A stretch of DNA of 64,000 nt, taken from the NCBI GenBank assembly GCA_030425505.1, contig JAUIAB010000001.1:186001-250000 (forward strand). Reading direction: 5' to 3'. Below, one piece after another: positions 4,489-55,752 of this stretch. Source of the stretch: Bacteroidia bacterium. GTDB lineage: Bacteria > Bacteroidota > Bacteroidia > Cytophagales > Flammeovirgaceae. A program made the translations under genes and the position numbers. Every line of letters starts with the position of its first letter. Positions within the stretch are counted from its first letter, which is position 1. The notes under the pieces were generated by a model that made no database searches, had not been told where the DNA came from, and saw only the letters and a program-made list of their open reading frames with translations.

Positions 4489-5397
4489 ATGGATAATTCT
4501 TCTACATTGGATACCACCACTTATAGTGATAACTCACTTTCCTTAAAGCTTAAGGGTTATATAACTATGTTTAAACTTCGCTTGAGTTTAACAGTAGCAT
4601 TCTCAGGTATTTTCGGGTATCTGATGGGTACTAATTGGAGTTTGATTGACCCACTCCATGTTTTTCTTTTCTTACTAGGTAGTTTGCTTATCGTTTTCTC
4701 TTCTAATATTTTGAATCAGATTTACGAAAAAAACTCTGATGCTCTAATGGGAAGAACAGCAAGTAGACCTTTGCCTCAAGGTATAATTACTGTTAAAGAA
4801 GCCTATTTTTCTTCGCTAATACTAGCCGTAGCTGGCTTTATCTTATTGGCTTTTTTTACAAACTTATTAGCAGCAAGTCTCTCTATTCTATCTCTCATTC
4901 TGTATGCATTTGTATACACCCCGCTCAAACCAGTTACCTCTTTTTCAGTTTTAGCTGGAGCATTTCCTGGAGCTTTACCTCCTTTAATAGGCTGGAGTGC
5001 CGTTACAGGAAGCATTTCTCAGGAAGCACTTATTCTATTTGGTATTCAGTTTATATGGCAATTCCCTCATTTTTGGGCAATTGCATGGGTTTGTGATGAC
5101 GACTATAGTAAGGCAAAGTTTAAAATGCTTCCTTCAAATAGTGGAAAAAATGCTTTTTCTGCTCTTCAAATATCTATTTATTCCTTTTTACTTATACCTA
5201 TTAGTTTATTGCCAGCCATTTTTGAAATGGTTAGTGACACCTATGTTTGGTTTGCCATTTTTCTGAGTACTGCTTTCGCATTAGCTACAGTACCTCTTTT
5301 ACTGGATAGAAGAAAAAAGTATGCGCTAATAATAATGTTTGCTTCGTTTTTCTACTTACCTCTATTGCAAACTTCTCTACTCATTTTTAAACTATAG
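4489..5397 (+). CDS. ctaB: Protoheme IX farnesyltransferase (heme O synthase)
   Basis: This 302-residue UbiA-superfamily prenyltransferase adds a farnesyl group to protoheme to make heme O, the substrate of CtaA. It has about nine membrane segments. The Asp-rich prenyl-diphosphate site is visible as NQIYEKNSDALMGRTASRPL around residues 84-103, and the second loop contains DDDYSKAKFKMLP. I prefer the ATG at 4489 over an in-frame TTG immediately before it. The leader is unusual: it is made almost entirely of the three-copy 95-bp repeat. Subunit genes of the oxidase follow about 50 bp downstream. Confidence 0.93.
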   Translation: MDNSSTLDTTTYSDNSLSLKLKGYITMFKLRLSLTVAFSGIFGYLMGTNWSLIDPLHVFLFLLGSLLIVFSSNILNQIYEKNSDALMGRTASRPLPQGIITVKEAYFSSLILAVAGFILLAFFTNLLAASLSILSLILYAFVYTPLKPVTSFSVLAGAFPGALPPLIGWSAVTGSISQEALILFGIQFIWQFPHFWAIAWVCDDDYSKAKFKMLPSNSGKNAFSALQISIYSFLLIPISLLPAIFEMVSDTYVWFAIFLSTAFALATVPLLLDRRKKYALIIMFASFFYLPLLQTSLLIFKL

Positions 5398-10151: not shown

Positions 10152-11357
10152 TCAAATATCAATACCTGCTTTTTTTAACTCAGACTTATTCTTCTTAATA
10201 AAGGTTTTTGCCTCTTTATAGGTACTATGCTTTTTATCTGCATAGTCCAGTATTTTTTTATAATAATAATATGTCTCTTCAAGGTTTTTTTCTTCTTCAT
10301 AAAGTCCTGCTAAGTAGGATAAAGCATACAAACAGTATCCAGATTTAGTCATGCTTGACTTCTCAGAAAAATCAACTGTTTTTAGAAAGTTCTCTTTTGC
10401 TAATTCTGTATTTTTATTGATAGTGGTATAATAAGAACCCAAATAAAAGCTGGCATACCTTCCACTAATCTCTTCATAACCAACTTTTTTACTTTCAATT
10501 CTTTTCAATATCTCTGAAGATACTTCTGACATTTCAGTGTATTTACCTGTTTCGTATAGCATCCTGGCGTAGTATCTATGAAAGTAAGGGTTATCAGGAT
10601 ACTGACTATTTAAATATTCAGACAAAAGGAGAGCTTGCTTTTTTTGATCTTCTCCTCTATAGATTTTTATAAGCCACATCATAGCTTCAATACGAGCATA
10701 AAAAGATTCTTGCGATACTTTTTTCAACTGCTCAATACCTTTCTCTTTATCTCCTTTCGGAAAAAACCACATGATTGGTCTTAATGCCTTGTAGTTTTCT
10801 CGTATCCAAACAGAGTAATAGTTGTACAAACCATCTCCAAATAAAAACTCAACCCCCAAATCTTTGTCTCTCCAGTTTTCTAAATAGTTTAATGCTTTTT
10901 TGCCAGATATCGCTGCTCTTGTCCAGCTTTCTCTTTCAGAATAAAGCCTTCCTTTAAAGGAGTGCGCTGCTGCAAGGAAAAACCCTGCATCAATGCTTTC
11001 TTCATTTTTTTCCAAAAGCTCTTCAGCAAATACAATTGAAGAATCCATATAGGAGATGAATACTTCATCGTATTTTTCACTTCCTTCAATATTGGGCATC
11101 ATTTTCCACCAATTGCTAAGACCAAATAGGAAATAAGGGAGTGGATGTCTAGGGTAATTAGATTTGAGCCAGCGAAATCTGCTTTCTGCTTTTTCAAACT
11201 GGAAGTTGTACATATTATCAACGCCCTCAGTAATTTCTATTTGCACAGAAATGTCATTCAATAGTGAGCTGACACTATCTAAATCAGGTAGTTGAGCATG
11301 CCCTATTCTACACAAAAAAAGTAAGGCAATAAATGGTAAAGTTCCTTTTGATAGCAT
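10152..11357 (-). CDS. Secreted TPR-like protein of unknown function
   Basis: A 401-residue protein with an N-terminal signal peptide (hydrophobic LPFIALLFLCRIG, cleavage near GHA/QLP). The rest is helical with repeat-like pairs: YNFQFEKAESRFRWLKSNYP, EGIEQLKKVSQESFYARIEAMMWL, YFHRYYARMLYETGKY, GYCLYALSYLAGLYEEEKNL. These fit tetratricopeptide repeats, which bind partner proteins. It is likely periplasmic. Its neighbours are a PBP on one side and a lipoprotein cluster on the other, which suggests an envelope role but does not define it. Confidence 0.7.
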   Translation of the reverse strand: MLSKGTLPFIALLFLCRIGHAQLPDLDSVSSLLNDISVQIEITEGVDNMYNFQFEKAESRFRWLKSNYPRHPLPYFLFGLSNWWKMMPNIEGSEKYDEVFISYMDSSIVFAEELLEKNEESIDAGFFLAAAHSFKGRLYSERESWTRAAISGKKALNYLENWRDKDLGVEFLFGDGLYNYYSVWIRENYKALRPIMWFFPKGDKEKGIEQLKKVSQESFYARIEAMMWLIKIYRGEDQKKQALLLSEYLNSQYPDNPYFHRYYARMLYETGKYTEMSEVSSEILKRIESKKVGYEEISGRYASFYLGSYYTTINKNTELAKENFLKTVDFSEKSSMTKSGYCLYALSYLAGLYEEEKNLEETYYYYKKILDYADKKHSTYKEAKTFIKKNKSELKKAGIDI

Positions 11358-11450
11358 AAGAAAAATCTTAACACTCTTTTTTTGCTTATTATAACAAAAG
11401 AGGTGTTCTTTAAAGCCAACTTTCAGCTTTAATTTTTGTTAAAAAAAATT

Positions 11451-47842: not shown

Positions 47843-48784
47843 CTAATAATTGCATAGTTCTTTTTTAGCTTCTAAAAACTCTCTCCATATTTCTTCTGTA
47901 ATTTCTTTAGCAGATTGAATTTTGTTGAGCATAGCAGATATCTGACCTATTTCAAGTTCTCCTTCGTCTAAATCTCCTTCAAATATTCCTTTTTTAGCTC
48001 TACCTTTTCCAAGTAATTCTACAAGGGTTTCTTTTCCCTTTCCTTGGTCTTCGGCTAATTTTACCTGATCGTAAAATTTGTTTTTGATTAGCCGAACTGC
48101 TGTTAGTTGCTTTAGTGTTAAAGCTGTTTCTCCTTCAACAGCTTCCAATACTTTTTTCTTGTATTGCTCATGTGCGGAAGACTCTTCGCTTACTGCATAT
48201 CTACTGCCGATTTGGACTCCCTCTGCCCCCAACACAAAGGCTGCAAGCATTGCCTGACCACTTGCTATTCCTCCAGCACCAATTATTGGTAGTTTTACCT
48301 CTTTTTTAAGCATTGGTAATAAACAAAAAGTGGTTGTTTCTTCTCTTCCATTATGACCTCCCGCTTCAAATCCTTCGGCTACTATTGCATCTACACCAAT
48401 GTCTTCGCATTTTTTTGCGAACTTTAAGCTAGAGACTACATGCACAACAGTTACTCCCTCTTCTTGAAGGTGCGTTGTCCAGGTCTTGGGGTTACCAGCC
48501 GATGTAAAAACAATTTTTACTTTTTCTCTAAGTATTATTTCAATATGTTTATCAATGTCAGGGTATAATAGTGGTAGGTTTACACCAAATGGTTTTTGCG
48601 TTGCTTTTTTACATTTTTGGATGTGTTCTTCTAAAACTTCAGGGTACATAGAACCTGCCCCTAATAACCCCAAGCCACCGGCATTACTAACAGCCGAAGC
48701 AAGTTTCCATCCACTACACCATACCATACCTGCTTGTATTATTGGATATTTTATGTCAAAAAGTTGTGCTACTCTATTATTCAT
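47843..48784 (-). CDS. FabK/nitronate monooxygenase-like flavoprotein
   Basis: 313 residues, FMN-dependent TIM barrel. The motifs YPIIQAGMVWCSGWKLASAV, GGLGLLGAG, EGFEAGGHNG and LPIIGAGGIASGQAML are those of the nitronate monooxygenase and enoyl-ACP reductase II (FabK) superfamily. Sequence alone does not distinguish between the two roles: FabK would reduce enoyl-ACP in fatty acid synthesis, nitronate monooxygenase would detoxify nitroalkanes. It is monocistronic; its stop adjoins that of hemE. A GC-rich structured element lies upstream. Confidence 0.85.
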   Translation of the reverse strand: MNNRVAQLFDIKYPIIQAGMVWCSGWKLASAVSNAGGLGLLGAGSMYPEVLEEHIQKCKKATQKPFGVNLPLLYPDIDKHIEIILREKVKIVFTSAGNPKTWTTHLQEEGVTVVHVVSSLKFAKKCEDIGVDAIVAEGFEAGGHNGREETTTFCLLPMLKKEVKLPIIGAGGIASGQAMLAAFVLGAEGVQIGSRYAVSEESSAHEQYKKKVLEAVEGETALTLKQLTAVRLIKNKFYDQVKLAEDQGKGKETLVELLGKGRAKKGIFEGDLDEGELEIGQISAMLNKIQSAKEITEEIWREFLEAKKELCNY

Positions 48785-48838: not shown

Positions 48839-48950
48839 ATCATGCGAAAGCATGATGTGCACTCCTGGCTAGGAGGCGCAGGGCAAGATCAAGTTGGGCT
48901 TTGTGGGTGGAAGCTTGCCCCGCCAGAAGAGCTTTGTGGGGAGTGCCCAC
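48839..48950. repeat. GC-rich nested hairpin element (RNA or dispersed repeat)
   Basis: ATCATGC-GAAA-GCATGAT (48839-48856) is a perfect 7-bp stem with a GNRA-type loop. Next to it, nested arms GCACTCC (48859-48865)/GGAGTGC (48940-48946), TGGC/GCCA and GGGCAAG (48881-48887)/CTTGCCC (48914-48920) form a branched fold, followed by a T-run. Its GC content is clearly above its AT-rich surroundings. No coding frame of note. It lies in the 306-bp gap between the FabK-like gene and rimM, both on the minus strand. Confidence 0.5.
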
Positions 48951-49034
48951 TTTTTACTTAGCTTATAGTACCAGTAAAAAAGAGAAGATAATAATTAAGC
49001 TGTAATAGTTAGTTTGGAAGTATTCTCCTTTTGC

Positions 49035-49069
49035 ATACACCTAATTATCTATAAGTTAATTAGGTGTAT
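49035..49069. terminator. Perfect 13-bp hairpin downstream of rimM
   Basis: ATACACCTAATTA (49035-49047) and TAATTAGGTGTAT (49057-49069) form a perfect stem with a 9-nt loop, 22 bp beyond the rimM stop. No U-run follows on either strand, so it may be a processing or non-canonical termination signal rather than a standard intrinsic terminator. Confidence 0.45.
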
Positions 49070-51567: not shown

Positions 51568-54500
51568 TTATTCTGGTTGTCTAAAGTATACATCTTCCGT
51601 AATGTATAATATTCCGTTTATAGTGTATATACCATTTATTGGCTCTAAAAATAGAGTAGTGTTTTGATCGCGATCTATAAAACTACCAAGAAGAGCTCTA
51701 CCAGCAATATTTACCATGATGTCTCCAGCAACAGGAGCAAAGTCTTGACCATTTACATTTCTTGGAGCACTAGATAATGAAACCAAATTTTGTCCTCTAA
51801 AAAGATTTCCATACAAGTATCTATCTTTAACTACCGACATCCCTATAATTCTTGACCATATAAATCCATCAACACCATTAGCAAATAGATCTGCAGGGTT
51901 GTTTATATTTCTCTGTAGAACTTCTTCAACAGCTTCGTTATTAGGAATAAAAAAGGTACACTCTGTGGCTTCGTTTGTAAAGTAGTTTTGGATATCTAAT
52001 GCTATATCTGTTATGCTATTAACATTGTTAATATTAAGGTTTAGTATACCTTGATTATCTGTCAATATACTATACACGTGACCAAAGTCTTCATTCATAG
52101 CAATGGCTTCCAGCATAGTAAATGGCTGCATAAACCCACCTTCTGTTATTTTATAAAGATTTCCTGTTGAACTTACCGTTACCTCTTTATCAAATCTTGC
52201 CTGATCGTCATTTACAATTACTTTATTTGGATCTGTTTGACCATCAAAATATACAGATAAGGAAACAAGACCATTATTATTATTTACCCTTATATTTTCT
52301 CTAGTAGATTTATATCCTTTGGCGAGAAAATCTTCAAGATATTGGCGACCTGAAATCAAATGATAATCAATTATATCTTCTAGAGTAAAAGCATTTAAAT
52401 TAAGGAAGTCATTAACACTATTCACTCCGTTAATGGTATTTCCATTATCAAAGAAGTCATTAATTACATCATTTGTTGGTATTGCTGCTGTTACTATCCT
52501 AAACCTAAAAGCATCTAAATCCTCTCCACCTGCTCTATCAATAGCCTCAGCAAAAATGCTAAGCTCAGGGTCATTATTTATTAAATCATAAAGGGTTGAA
52601 CAACTACCTTGTAAATTTCCTGTTATTGCTTTAGCCATTCGGTAAATAACTGCAGTGGAATTATTTTGATTTGGAATGAAAATAGACTGATTTTCATTAA
52701 TTCGAACATTTTCTATATATATATTATTACCCAATTGCTCAACTTTAACTCTATAGCCACTATTCATATTGATAGTATTATCATTTTCTTGTGCTATATT
52801 TTGCAAATTTGCAAAGCTAAAATAGTCCCTTGTATATATATGATTGCGAACAAATGTTCTTAGGTTGTTACGATTCGGAGTTATTTCATTTATACATTCT
52901 TCTACTGCTTCTAACACTGCGTTATAAGGAATAAAGGCTGTAGCAGTAGCATCTCTAAAGGTAGCTTCTAGCTCACTTAGCTTTATCAGGTTTATGAATT
53001 CACTATAACTAGCAAGATCCGTATATAAACCACCAAGTATTGTTTTAGGAGAGGGGCAAACCCCAGCATTTCTTATGGCTCCTGTGGTAAGCAAACCTCC
53101 ATTTTCAAGCGCATAAACCACCTGTAAATTGTTGTTTTCACTTACAAAAGCCACTGAATTTTGAGCTCCCAAAACTATTTCGCCATTAAGAATAACCGTG
53201 CTGTTGTCTGCTCTTTCTAAAGAAGCATATATATCATTGCTTCTATTTGCAGCTCTTGTTCTTAACAGGATTTCGTTATCGTTATCTTGACGCAGATCAT
53301 CTCTTAAAGAGCTGTAATTAATCTGGTCTGCATCAAGCATATGCATTTTAACATATTCAGTTAAATCATTTCTTATTGCTTGCTGCAGACAGTCATTTGG
53401 TAAGTTATTCAATGTTTCATCTGTAGGGAAAAAACCAGTACCACCCCCATTTTCAAACTCCTGAATAACCTCTTGCTCTAAACCAGCATCTCTTATTAAG
53501 CTTACAAAAACATTGAAATGTCCATCTTGCTCTAAAGCTTCAATAATATTAGCTGGAGGAGCTGGCGCATTATCCAAAATATCATTTTCTAAGGCTAGTA
53601 TTTTGTCTATACTATGCATGTAGGTAGAAAAATTTCCATAGTCTTCCGTTTCAACAGAAGGGCTTTCAAAAAGAAGCTCATTTCCATTAAAAACAAGAGT
53701 ACCATTAACTCTTTCTATTGTAAATACTACAGGATTCCCAAAAGACCTTCCCACTAGATTTTGTGCAGCCCTTGCATTATTCTCCAACACAAAAAATGAC
53801 AATGCAGCCTTTAAGTCAGATATAGGAAGATCTCCTGCACTATTAATTTCAAAATTTCTTCTTCTACTAATTTCATTAAAGAAATCTTCAAATGCTGAAT
53901 TTGTAGGAGCTATCAAAGTTACCCGCTGCTGCTCAAAACTTTGTCTAAGATCATCATCTATGGCAAGAAGAATGTCCAATGCATCATCTAATATCTGATG
54001 ATTAGGGTTTAAAGATATTAACTCTCTCCTAGATAAGTAGTCAGGCATTCTATCCAATAAATGAATCAGACCATTTATTGCTTCAATATCCCTATCTAAA
54101 ACATTTGCACGATTGTTAATTTGTATCTGCTCTCCATTTTTGTTTATAAAAAATGTGGTAGTGAAATTCGCAATTACCTGACCTCCCTGAGGCAATTCAC
54201 TTAATATAAACCTTTCTCTAAAGAGTGATGGATATAATGCTCTTTCTGCAAAAGTATCACCAAAAAAGCGATCTTGACCTTGGTTATTATTAATAATCGC
54301 TAGAGCAATGTCTATATCATTTACTTCATTGTCTGCATTTTGATCTGGTATTTGATCAGGATCTAGACCATTAGCTCTTAAATATTGCCTAACCGCTTGG
54401 TTTGTTGGTAAAAAAAATGTTTGATCTCGATTATTATCAAGATCAAAAAAGTCATCAAAGTAGCTAAAATCTGGCTGACCTAAAGGCCTATGCCTATCAA

Positions 54501-55722
54501 AAAAAGCCTCAAGAATGCTTAGCCTCGGTTCATTTCGTATATAATCTCCTATCGTAAAAGGCTGTCCGCCATCATTGTCGTCGTCATCATCGTCACCTGC
54601 TTCCAAACCACAGTTTATTGCAACATCATTAGTAAAGCCTGTTGGAGCCTTAGGAAACAAAACCCCATCTGTTAAAGCAAATATAACTCCATTCGATGCT
54701 GGAAGTGCAGCATCTTCATCAAACCCACCTACCACTACTCCATCAATCACTACAGAGCCATTCATCGTAGTAACCTCTAATGATTGGAAATTCTGCGTGG
54801 AATAAAAGTTGTTATTTTGATCTTGAGCTCTATTGGTAAGATCATTAAATGTTTTGGTTCCTGGCTCAAGAAGAACATGGTTTTTCACAAACCTATCCGC
54901 GTCTTCCTGGCTATTAATTATTTGCCTCTTACAGTTATCTCCTATGTTGTTTAATGCATTATTAGTAGGTATAAATACTGTTCTTCCCCCTTCTATTTGT
55001 TCAGTAAATAAGTCTTTAGTTTCTTGGCTAGAGTTGTTTATAATATTCAAAAACTCTGAGAGAGAATTTACATCTGATAAAACTTCCAAAAGGTTAGGCC
55101 CCACATCGTCGTCGTCATCGTCGTCATCATCATCATCATCATCATCGTCATCGTCGTCGTCGTCATCTCCATCGTCATCTCCATCCCCACCACCAGCATT
55201 ACCTTGAACTGGCGTAAGGACATTTCTTAGAAAGTATACTGTTCCGTTGGTAGCCCTTTCATCTACAAAAAATGGAGAATAGGTATTGTTGATCAGAATA
55301 TTATCTCCATTGACATCTATATTGATTACTGTACCAGCACTAAGTGTAGCATAGTCTCCATCTTGAACCTCATCTAAAGAAAGGTCTTGCCCTACTACAT
55401 GGTATTTCAGTACTTCTGCTAAAGTTTCCTCATCAATATCTTCTAAACTCTCAATTCCTTTTGCACTTAAGAATGCATCAAATGCATCATCAGTGGGGGC
55501 AAATAAAGTGTAGTCTCCATCCTGCCTTAGAGTTTCGAACAAACCTGTTGTTCTCAAAGCATCTACCAACTTAGAAAACTGTTGCTTGGGAGCTATTATA
55601 TCTGTTATTTTCTTAGGAGCACCTGCAGTGACAATTATATTGTCATCACCTCCATCCAGTGTACAATCTGAAACCAAGAAAAGAATTGCAAAAAAGTAGA
55701 GGAGTTTCGTTATAAACTTCAT
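51568..55722 (-). CDS. Multi-fasciclin-domain lipoprotein with poly-Asp linker
   Basis: 1384 residues from ATG at 55722, chosen because MKFITKLLYFFAILFLVSDC is a lipoprotein signal (Cys at residue 20); ten extra upstream codons are less likely. About eight FAS1-like domains follow, recognisable by DGDYTLFAPTDDAFDAFL, VFIPTNNALNNI, FFLPTNQAVRQYL, TLIAPTNSAFEDFF, GFFPTDETLNNLP, AFIPYNAVLEAVE, AAIPTNDVINDFF and FFIPNNEAVEEVL. Only the first is canonical (with the Y-H motif KYHVVGQ). The first and second are joined by a run of more than 20 Asp, and a second Asp-rich linker follows domain 2. It is likely a surface or outer-membrane adhesion protein; the Asp runs may bind Ca2+ (inference). Confidence 0.88.
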   Translation of the reverse strand: MKFITKLLYFFAILFLVSDCTLDGGDDNIIVTAGAPKKITDIIAPKQQFSKLVDALRTTGLFETLRQDGDYTLFAPTDDAFDAFLSAKGIESLEDIDEETLAEVLKYHVVGQDLSLDEVQDGDYATLSAGTVINIDVNGDNILINNTYSPFFVDERATNGTVYFLRNVLTPVQGNAGGGDGDDDGDDDDDDDDDDDDDDDDDDDDDVGPNLLEVLSDVNSLSEFLNIINNSSQETKDLFTEQIEGGRTVFIPTNNALNNIGDNCKRQIINSQEDADRFVKNHVLLEPGTKTFNDLTNRAQDQNNNFYSTQNFQSLEVTTMNGSVVIDGVVVGGFDEDAALPASNGVIFALTDGVLFPKAPTGFTNDVAINCGLEAGDDDDDDNDGGQPFTIGDYIRNEPRLSILEAFFDRHRPLGQPDFSYFDDFFDLDNNRDQTFFLPTNQAVRQYLRANGLDPDQIPDQNADNEVNDIDIALAIINNNQGQDRFFGDTFAERALYPSLFRERFILSELPQGGQVIANFTTTFFINKNGEQIQINNRANVLDRDIEAINGLIHLLDRMPDYLSRRELISLNPNHQILDDALDILLAIDDDLRQSFEQQRVTLIAPTNSAFEDFFNEISRRRNFEINSAGDLPISDLKAALSFFVLENNARAAQNLVGRSFGNPVVFTIERVNGTLVFNGNELLFESPSVETEDYGNFSTYMHSIDKILALENDILDNAPAPPANIIEALEQDGHFNVFVSLIRDAGLEQEVIQEFENGGGTGFFPTDETLNNLPNDCLQQAIRNDLTEYVKMHMLDADQINYSSLRDDLRQDNDNEILLRTRAANRSNDIYASLERADNSTVILNGEIVLGAQNSVAFVSENNNLQVVYALENGGLLTTGAIRNAGVCPSPKTILGGLYTDLASYSEFINLIKLSELEATFRDATATAFIPYNAVLEAVEECINEITPNRNNLRTFVRNHIYTRDYFSFANLQNIAQENDNTINMNSGYRVKVEQLGNNIYIENVRINENQSIFIPNQNNSTAVIYRMAKAITGNLQGSCSTLYDLINNDPELSIFAEAIDRAGGEDLDAFRFRIVTAAIPTNDVINDFFDNGNTINGVNSVNDFLNLNAFTLEDIIDYHLISGRQYLEDFLAKGYKSTRENIRVNNNNGLVSLSVYFDGQTDPNKVIVNDDQARFDKEVTVSSTGNLYKITEGGFMQPFTMLEAIAMNEDFGHVYSILTDNQGILNLNINNVNSITDIALDIQNYFTNEATECTFFIPNNEAVEEVLQRNINNPADLFANGVDGFIWSRIIGMSVVKDRYLYGNLFRGQNLVSLSSAPRNVNGQDFAPVAGDIMVNIAGRALLGSFIDRDQNTTLFLEPINGIYTINGILYITEDVYFRQPE
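55105..55182. repeat. GAY trinucleotide tract encoding poly-Asp
   Basis: On the plus strand the tract is a run of TCG/TCA triplets, i.e. GAC/GAT codons for Asp on the minus strand, in frame within the fasciclin lipoprotein. Because the period is 3, gain or loss of units would only change linker length. Mixed GAC and GAT codons suggest it is not a very recent expansion. Confidence 0.85.
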
Positions 55723-55752
55723 TTTTAGACGGTTAAATACAATAACCTGCAA

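Follow-up and report, generated by a model that had tools for sequence, protein, structure and literature searches.

The window analysed here is a stretch of 64,000 nucleotides from a bacterium of the family Flammeovirgaceae, the genome of which (the source genome, G000) is a draft of 2.95 Mb. Between rimM and the start of a FabK-like gene (PF03060, nitronate monooxygenase/FabK type; minus strand, start at 48784), and 74 nt before that start, lies a G+C-rich element with a core of 88 nt (48859..48946, plus strand). The core is the span of a covariance model, and both BLASTN and the model find matches elsewhere in the genome. Its G+C content is 0.61, versus 0.37 and 0.28 in the neighbouring stretches on either side. 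An outer stem, P1, is formed by the arms GCACTC (48859..48864) and GAGTGC (48941..48946). A joining strand (48865..48874) leads to P2a, with the arms GGCG (48875..48878) and CGCC (48921..48924), and after a two-base bulge follows P2b, with the arms GGGCAAG (48881..48887) and CTTGCCC (48914..48920), all seven pairs of which form in the window copy. P2b carries an apical loop (48888..48913), which starts with GATCAAG in the window copy and with GACCGAA in the consensus, and a conserved strand (48925..48940) joins P2a back to P1. Upstream of the core lies the hairpin ATCATGC-GAAA-GCATGAT (48839..48856, plus strand; arms 48839-48845 and 48850-48856), which many copies in this genome carry as an addition, and downstream follow CC and a T-rich tail (48947..48955, plus strand), namely CCAC and then five T at 48951-48955. 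The 7-bp GNRA hairpin, the three nested arm pairs, the G+C-rich patch and the T-run that an earlier note on this DNA had described are all present at the places it gave.

Folding of the window copy by itself gave a z-score of -2.07 for the plus strand (4 of 200 shuffled sequences at least as stable) and of -2.74 for the minus strand (2/200). The folding of one copy alone proves little and does not tell the two strands apart. Because the window copy folds only modestly better than its shuffles, the case rests on the comparison of many copies. Two further features of the window were observed, an inverted repeat, ACACCTAATTA ... TAATTAGGTGT, at 49037-49067 between the element and the end of rimM, which is perhaps a terminator, and a long fasciclin-like protein encoded at 51568-55752 (minus strand), the translation of which has an aspartate run near its start.

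The suggestion of the earlier note that the element could be a dispersed repeat was borne out by searching the source genome for copies. With the window copy as the query, BLASTN returned 18 matches at E<=10, of which 13 had E<=2.5e-5, and with a consensus query it returned 23. Covariance model R1, built from 24 copies, detected 61 matches at E<=1 and 54 at E<=7.7e-8, while model R2, built from 62 copies, detected 62 at E<=1 and 59 at E<=1e-3. Within the window, R2 has a single match, which is the core (73.3 bits, E 1.3e-19). G001, which like G003 represents another genus of the same family, contains 20 copies at E<=0.004, 19 of them at E<=4.8e-8.

The arms are real across the copies. In an alignment of 80 copies, 92.8% of the pair cells contain standard pairs, compared to 27.5-43.9% for slid versions of the fold. 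Two-sided changes were found in 203 cells, versus 56.8 in shuffles, and they affect 13 of the 17 stem pairs; four of five covariation measures beat all 500 shuffles and the fifth was equalled by 3/500. P1 is paired in 95.1% of the cells (n=80), with two-sided changes in 5/6 pairs, P2a in 93.8% (3/4 pairs), and P2b in 90.3% (5/7 pairs), one P2b pair being open in 42 of 78 copies. Fitting an alignment to a model biases it towards the pairs of the model, and this applies to A3 and A4. An unfitted alignment of 14 copies was therefore used as the control, and for this RNAalifold predicted the P2 stems and part of P1, with two-sided changes in 5/17 predicted pairs. A covariation scan of 72 copies (excluding L024, L115, L116 and L117-L121) yielded ten stem pairs and three others as its best 13 column pairs, and indicated an additional pair of position 31 with 56. 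The same number of copies reveals conserved letters outside the stems: in the strand between P1 and P2a, position 10 is G and position 16 is A in 71/72 copies each; in the apical loop, model positions 30 (A, 72/72), 32 (C, 72/72) and 33 (G, 69/72) are conserved; and in the strand between P2a and P1, position 76 is G in 72/72 and position 81 is G in 69/72 copies. Therefore, the designation 'structured' holds, and copies and covariation, the absence of which the earlier note had named as speaking against its reading, are both found in the data. In seven G001 copies (L090-L093 and L122-L124) P1 seems to have its real 3' arm at a more downstream position, past an extra G+C-rich hairpin, so that the model ends too early.

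An alignment of 62 copies (A4), which was the basis of R2, was also used for the nearest-copy comparison, the tree and the counts of stem pairs. With the often-open P2b pair excluded, there are 22 G-T/T-G pairs versus 6 A-C/C-A, and this excess indicates that the plus strand is the folded one. Nearest copies differ at 19% of the loop sites, yet no change was seen in 832 of their 917 stem pairs; 33 have changed on both sides, 24 on one side with the pair retained, and only 24 are broken. The conservation of the stems in spite of the loop differences suggests that each copy is selected at its own site and is not a neutral remnant. In the tree, 11 G001 copies lie on one side of a branch with a support of 100/99, and the source genome has sub-families of 17 rows (100/94) and 16 rows (99/98), while many forks are unresolved. 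This branching pattern indicates that each genome has amplified its own sub-families. The closest two copies are 3% apart, and the end branches have a median length of 0.09; near-identical, recent copies were not found among the 62 copies compared.

The distribution of the family is patchy. R1 has matches in 2 of 18 genomes of the family, a set that holds no further genome of the source genus or of the genus of G001. R2 has matches in 2 of 390 genomes of the order, including the source genome, and in 1 of 395 genomes of the class, which is the source genome; these two scans had a reduced sensitivity, because about ten candidates per genome were scored with stricter filters and distant or single copies may have been missed. 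Searches of a plasmid collection with four queries and of a phage collection with one query gave no match to the element. Pattern scans of collections of genome contigs and viral contigs, for which the first pattern suits only some sub-families, gave one stretch each (L132 and L133), and both were rejected as members, since L132 has only 11.8 bits (E 0.23) with the covariance model and L133 has no match at E<=5. No Rfam 15 family matched the window or any of seven loci of G001 and G003 at the gathering threshold, and a permissive threshold gave six chance matches to 14 source-genome loci, all of them sub-threshold. A literature search with general terms in open-licence papers retrieved no description of the family.

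G003 contains an extended form, for which BLASTN with a 137-nt query gave 11 matches, a number that includes parts and assembly duplicates. It has the loop start and the GGCG/CGCC stem in common with the other copies, and R2 detects only its apical part (20.5 bits). It was kept out of the joint alignment, in which MAFFT misplaced its stem. Once the G003 element stands alone, with 122 nt in common with another copy, and in three places (L144, L145 and L134) it closes a repeated unit of a few kb, which contains a RecE-like exonuclease gene (phrog_412; PF12684) and encodes three proteins without a confident match in Pfam or PHROGs. The contig of one of these units is a head-to-tail repetition with a period of 29.7 kb and has a Rep3 gene, and is therefore a plasmid. 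The exonuclease was considered as a mobiliser and rejected, because matches to it occur in two of six genomes (G003 and G002), and in neither G000 nor G001. Separately, at L146 (about 11250-11425) and L134 (about 5053-5157) of G003 the apical loop of the extended form was seen to contain an insert of TCGGTCACACC-like units, and at L146 several units of 14 bases are arranged in tandem.

Analyses of gene neighbours, flanks and promoters, tags and core sites, ORF overlap and upstream hairpins were performed without L024 and L117-L121. With a criterion of 20 nt overlap, 68 of 74 copies are clear of ATG ORFs of at least 100 aa, compared to 201 of 1284 stretches taken at random from these loci; the overlapping fractions are 6/74 and 1083/1284, respectively. 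The directions of the upstream and downstream gene relative to the element are -,+ for 18 of the 56 source-genome copies, +,+ for 18, -,- for 13 and +,- for five, with two undetermined, and in 31 of 54 cases the upstream gene diverges from the element. In gaps between genes of the same direction, 26 copies are oriented with the genes and 14 against them (both genomes pooled), which is a mild bias at most.

Many copies carry additions beside the core. An upstream stem of at least six pairs that ends at most 6 nt from P1 is present at 23 of 56 source-genome copies versus 33 of 275 shifted control stretches, and the pattern ATCATGC..GCATGA occurs at 15 sites in the genome, 12 of which are directly beside a copy. 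Directly after the core of the 56 copies stand two positions with C frequencies of 0.91 and 0.89, and T reaches 0.55-0.82 at positions 5-11, versus 0.40 further downstream; no T-run follows the core of 18 G001 copies. For the window copy, a terminator-like match at 48936-48950 plus the T tail was found on the plus strand (one, versus 0.4 in shuffles). As many source-genome copies combine an upstream hairpin with a T-rich tail, some copies may act as transcription terminators. No fixed target sequence was found to flank the ends of the element. The left flank is weakly biased in the source genome (T 0.55 at -3, C 0.34 at -2, A 0.45 at -1), and in G001 the frequency of T at -1 is 0.83. Other dispersed hairpins were observed just upstream of copies at L099, L107, L108 and L118, and also upstream at L082; the types are CTAACAGG...CCTGTTAG in the source genome and GTAGAGACGC...GCGTCTCTAC in G001.

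The orientation of the copies was compared with replication. The third-position GC skew of G001 switches its sign near 3.5 and 7.3 Mb, and the origin and terminus were placed from skew samples, which are positive in 17/17 cases in one half and negative in 12/14 in the other. On the assumption that the G-rich strand is the leading strand, 18 of the 20 G001 copies are leading-sense, compared to 184 of 379 ORFs (Fisher p 3e-4). The spacing of these copies is uneven, half of them (10/20) being located inside 5.5-6.2 Mb of the 7.66 Mb. In the source genome, 39 of 59 copies agree with the local third-position skew, and 27 of 36 where that skew is clear. A strand-balanced count, which 57 of the 59 copies entered after exclusion of two for which the genes lie on one strand only, gave agreement for 36/55, and for 24/32 above 0.06. 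The raw GC skew agrees with the orientation of only 31 of 59 copies, and 26/59 follow the local gene majority. The leading-sense bias is weaker in the source genome than in G001. A leading-sense strand is the template for the lagging strand, and according to standard replication biology the folded strand would therefore be left single-stranded at the fork.

The number of copies, the one-strand fold, the intergenic sites, the replication bias, the patchiness and the separate amplification together point to one copy of an unlisted, dispersed, non-autonomous, REP-like mobile family of about 90 bases, which would spread as a folded single strand. Exposure of the plus strand, in the form of the lagging-strand template or of an RNA copy, would allow it to fold, and a trans-acting enzyme would then recognise the folded strand and copy or transfer it to a different single-stranded site. 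Such a process could leave the copies oriented with replication, and copies inserted in genes would be lost. No mobilising enzyme was identified among the candidates examined, i.e., the Y1 matches and the RecE-like exonuclease. The stem constraint, the lack of near-identical copies, the raw-skew agreement of 31/59 and the lack of a fixed target flank count against mobility. The stem constraint and the weaker bias in the source genome keep our confidence in this interpretation at an even balance.

Several known systems resemble the element in part. The folded ends of IS200/IS605 elements are recognised as ssDNA, and the lagging-strand template is targeted. The orientation bias of the element (18/20 in G001, weaker in the source genome) fits such targeting, but the element has no fixed target at its left end and no Y1 gene consistently beside its copies. 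Integron attC sites are recombined as folded single strands, their fold is more conserved than their sequence, and they occur in cassette arrays. The element shares the folded single strand and the conservation of fold above sequence; in contrast, its copies are dispersed singly. Both attC core sites, GTTRRRY and RYYYAAC, were found on the top strand of one copy out of 74 and on the bottom strand of one out of 74, and membership was rejected. With structured RNAs of Rfam and with group II introns, the insertion of which can show a replication bias, the element has a covarying fold with conserved loop letters in common; unlike them, it has no match in Rfam 15. For IS200/IS605-type elements, single-strand transposition as well as non-autonomous derivatives have been described (PMC6006769). 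REPs have been described to be recognised as ssDNA by TnpA-REP (PMC8266576), and as simple hairpins of 20-40 bp that have a stem of 5-13 bp and carry GTAG or CGTC as a tag (PMC3733652). Like the REP, BIME and REPIN sequences associated with RAYTs, the element is an intergenic, dispersed, folded single-strand repeat with many copies, but its length is about 90 bases, a conserved junction connects its outer with its inner stem, and it lacks GTAG and CGTC tags. The tests for REP tags, for attC core sites and for a consistent neighbourhood of RAYT genes were all negative, and the element was therefore not filed under these families, although its mechanism may resemble that of REP or IS200-type elements.

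The main rival explanation, which we regard as possible but doubtful, is that the many diverged copies are transcribed as structured RNAs of one family, with a regulatory, protein-binding or self-cleaving role, and that each is selected in place. The conserved loop and junction letters, the strong stem constraint and the retention of the stems in every sub-family argue for it, as does the T-rich tail past P1 in the source genome, whereas the G-T pairs suit RNA and ssDNA alike. However, the G001 copies have no T-run, no Rfam 15 family matched, the upstream gene points away in those 31 of 54 cases, and a patchy, separately amplified family would be unusual for a regulatory RNA. The Bacteroidota -7 promoter motif is TAnnTTTG. 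This motif is not enriched upstream of the copies, with four occurrences in 5600 nt on the element strand versus nine on the opposite strand. The leading-sense bias and the stem constraint are also consistent with a single-strand structure that the host itself uses at the replication fork, e.g., a protein loading site or a chromosome-organising motif oriented with replication, but its presence in only 2 of 390 genomes of the order, the uneven spacing in G001 and the separate amplification make such a host function improbable.

A true REP family whose mobility depends on a RAYT (Y1) transposase from its own genome was promising at first sight, because a copy lies 221 nt downstream of the single Y1_Tnp ORF of the source genome (C32:30880-31224, L048), which has its own short inverted repeats upstream (CCCACGAATTAATTCGTGGG). 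This adjacency fails in the other two genomes: none of the 17 Y1 matches of G001 is within 5 kb of a copy, the nearest being at about 5.5 kb from a weak copy, and the one Y1 match of G003 is about 360 kb away from the nearest copy on its contig. In addition, 15 other genomes of the family, including G003, have Y1 matches but no R1 match, and GTAG was found at the foot of 2/74 copies and CGTC at 0/74, which renders a RAYT-driven REP family quite improbable. The earlier note had also proposed a leader of the FabK-like gene, and a leader or cis-regulator would be in accordance with the position between the start of this gene and rimM. This proposal has to be given up almost completely, because the folded strand is the plus strand while the gene is on the minus strand, and other copies adjoin other genes in all orientations.

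Dispersed folded repeats are already known; what is new about the folded mobile family proposed here is the outer stem, the conserved junction, the absence of REP tags and the lack of an Rfam match. It is even conceivable, though rather unlikely, that it represents a new class of mobile element, in which a new enzyme copies an entire branched RNA-like domain, including its conserved apical loop and junction, via a folded ssDNA or RNA intermediate at replication forks. About 60 covarying copies in a genome of 2.95 Mb represent a natural mutagenesis set for one fold without an Rfam match. If the copies are RNAs, they form an unlisted and very numerous RNA family. If the movement of a folded single strand tied to replication is true, REP- and IS200-type mobility would be extended to a far more elaborate structure, and the search for the enzyme of the element would become practical.
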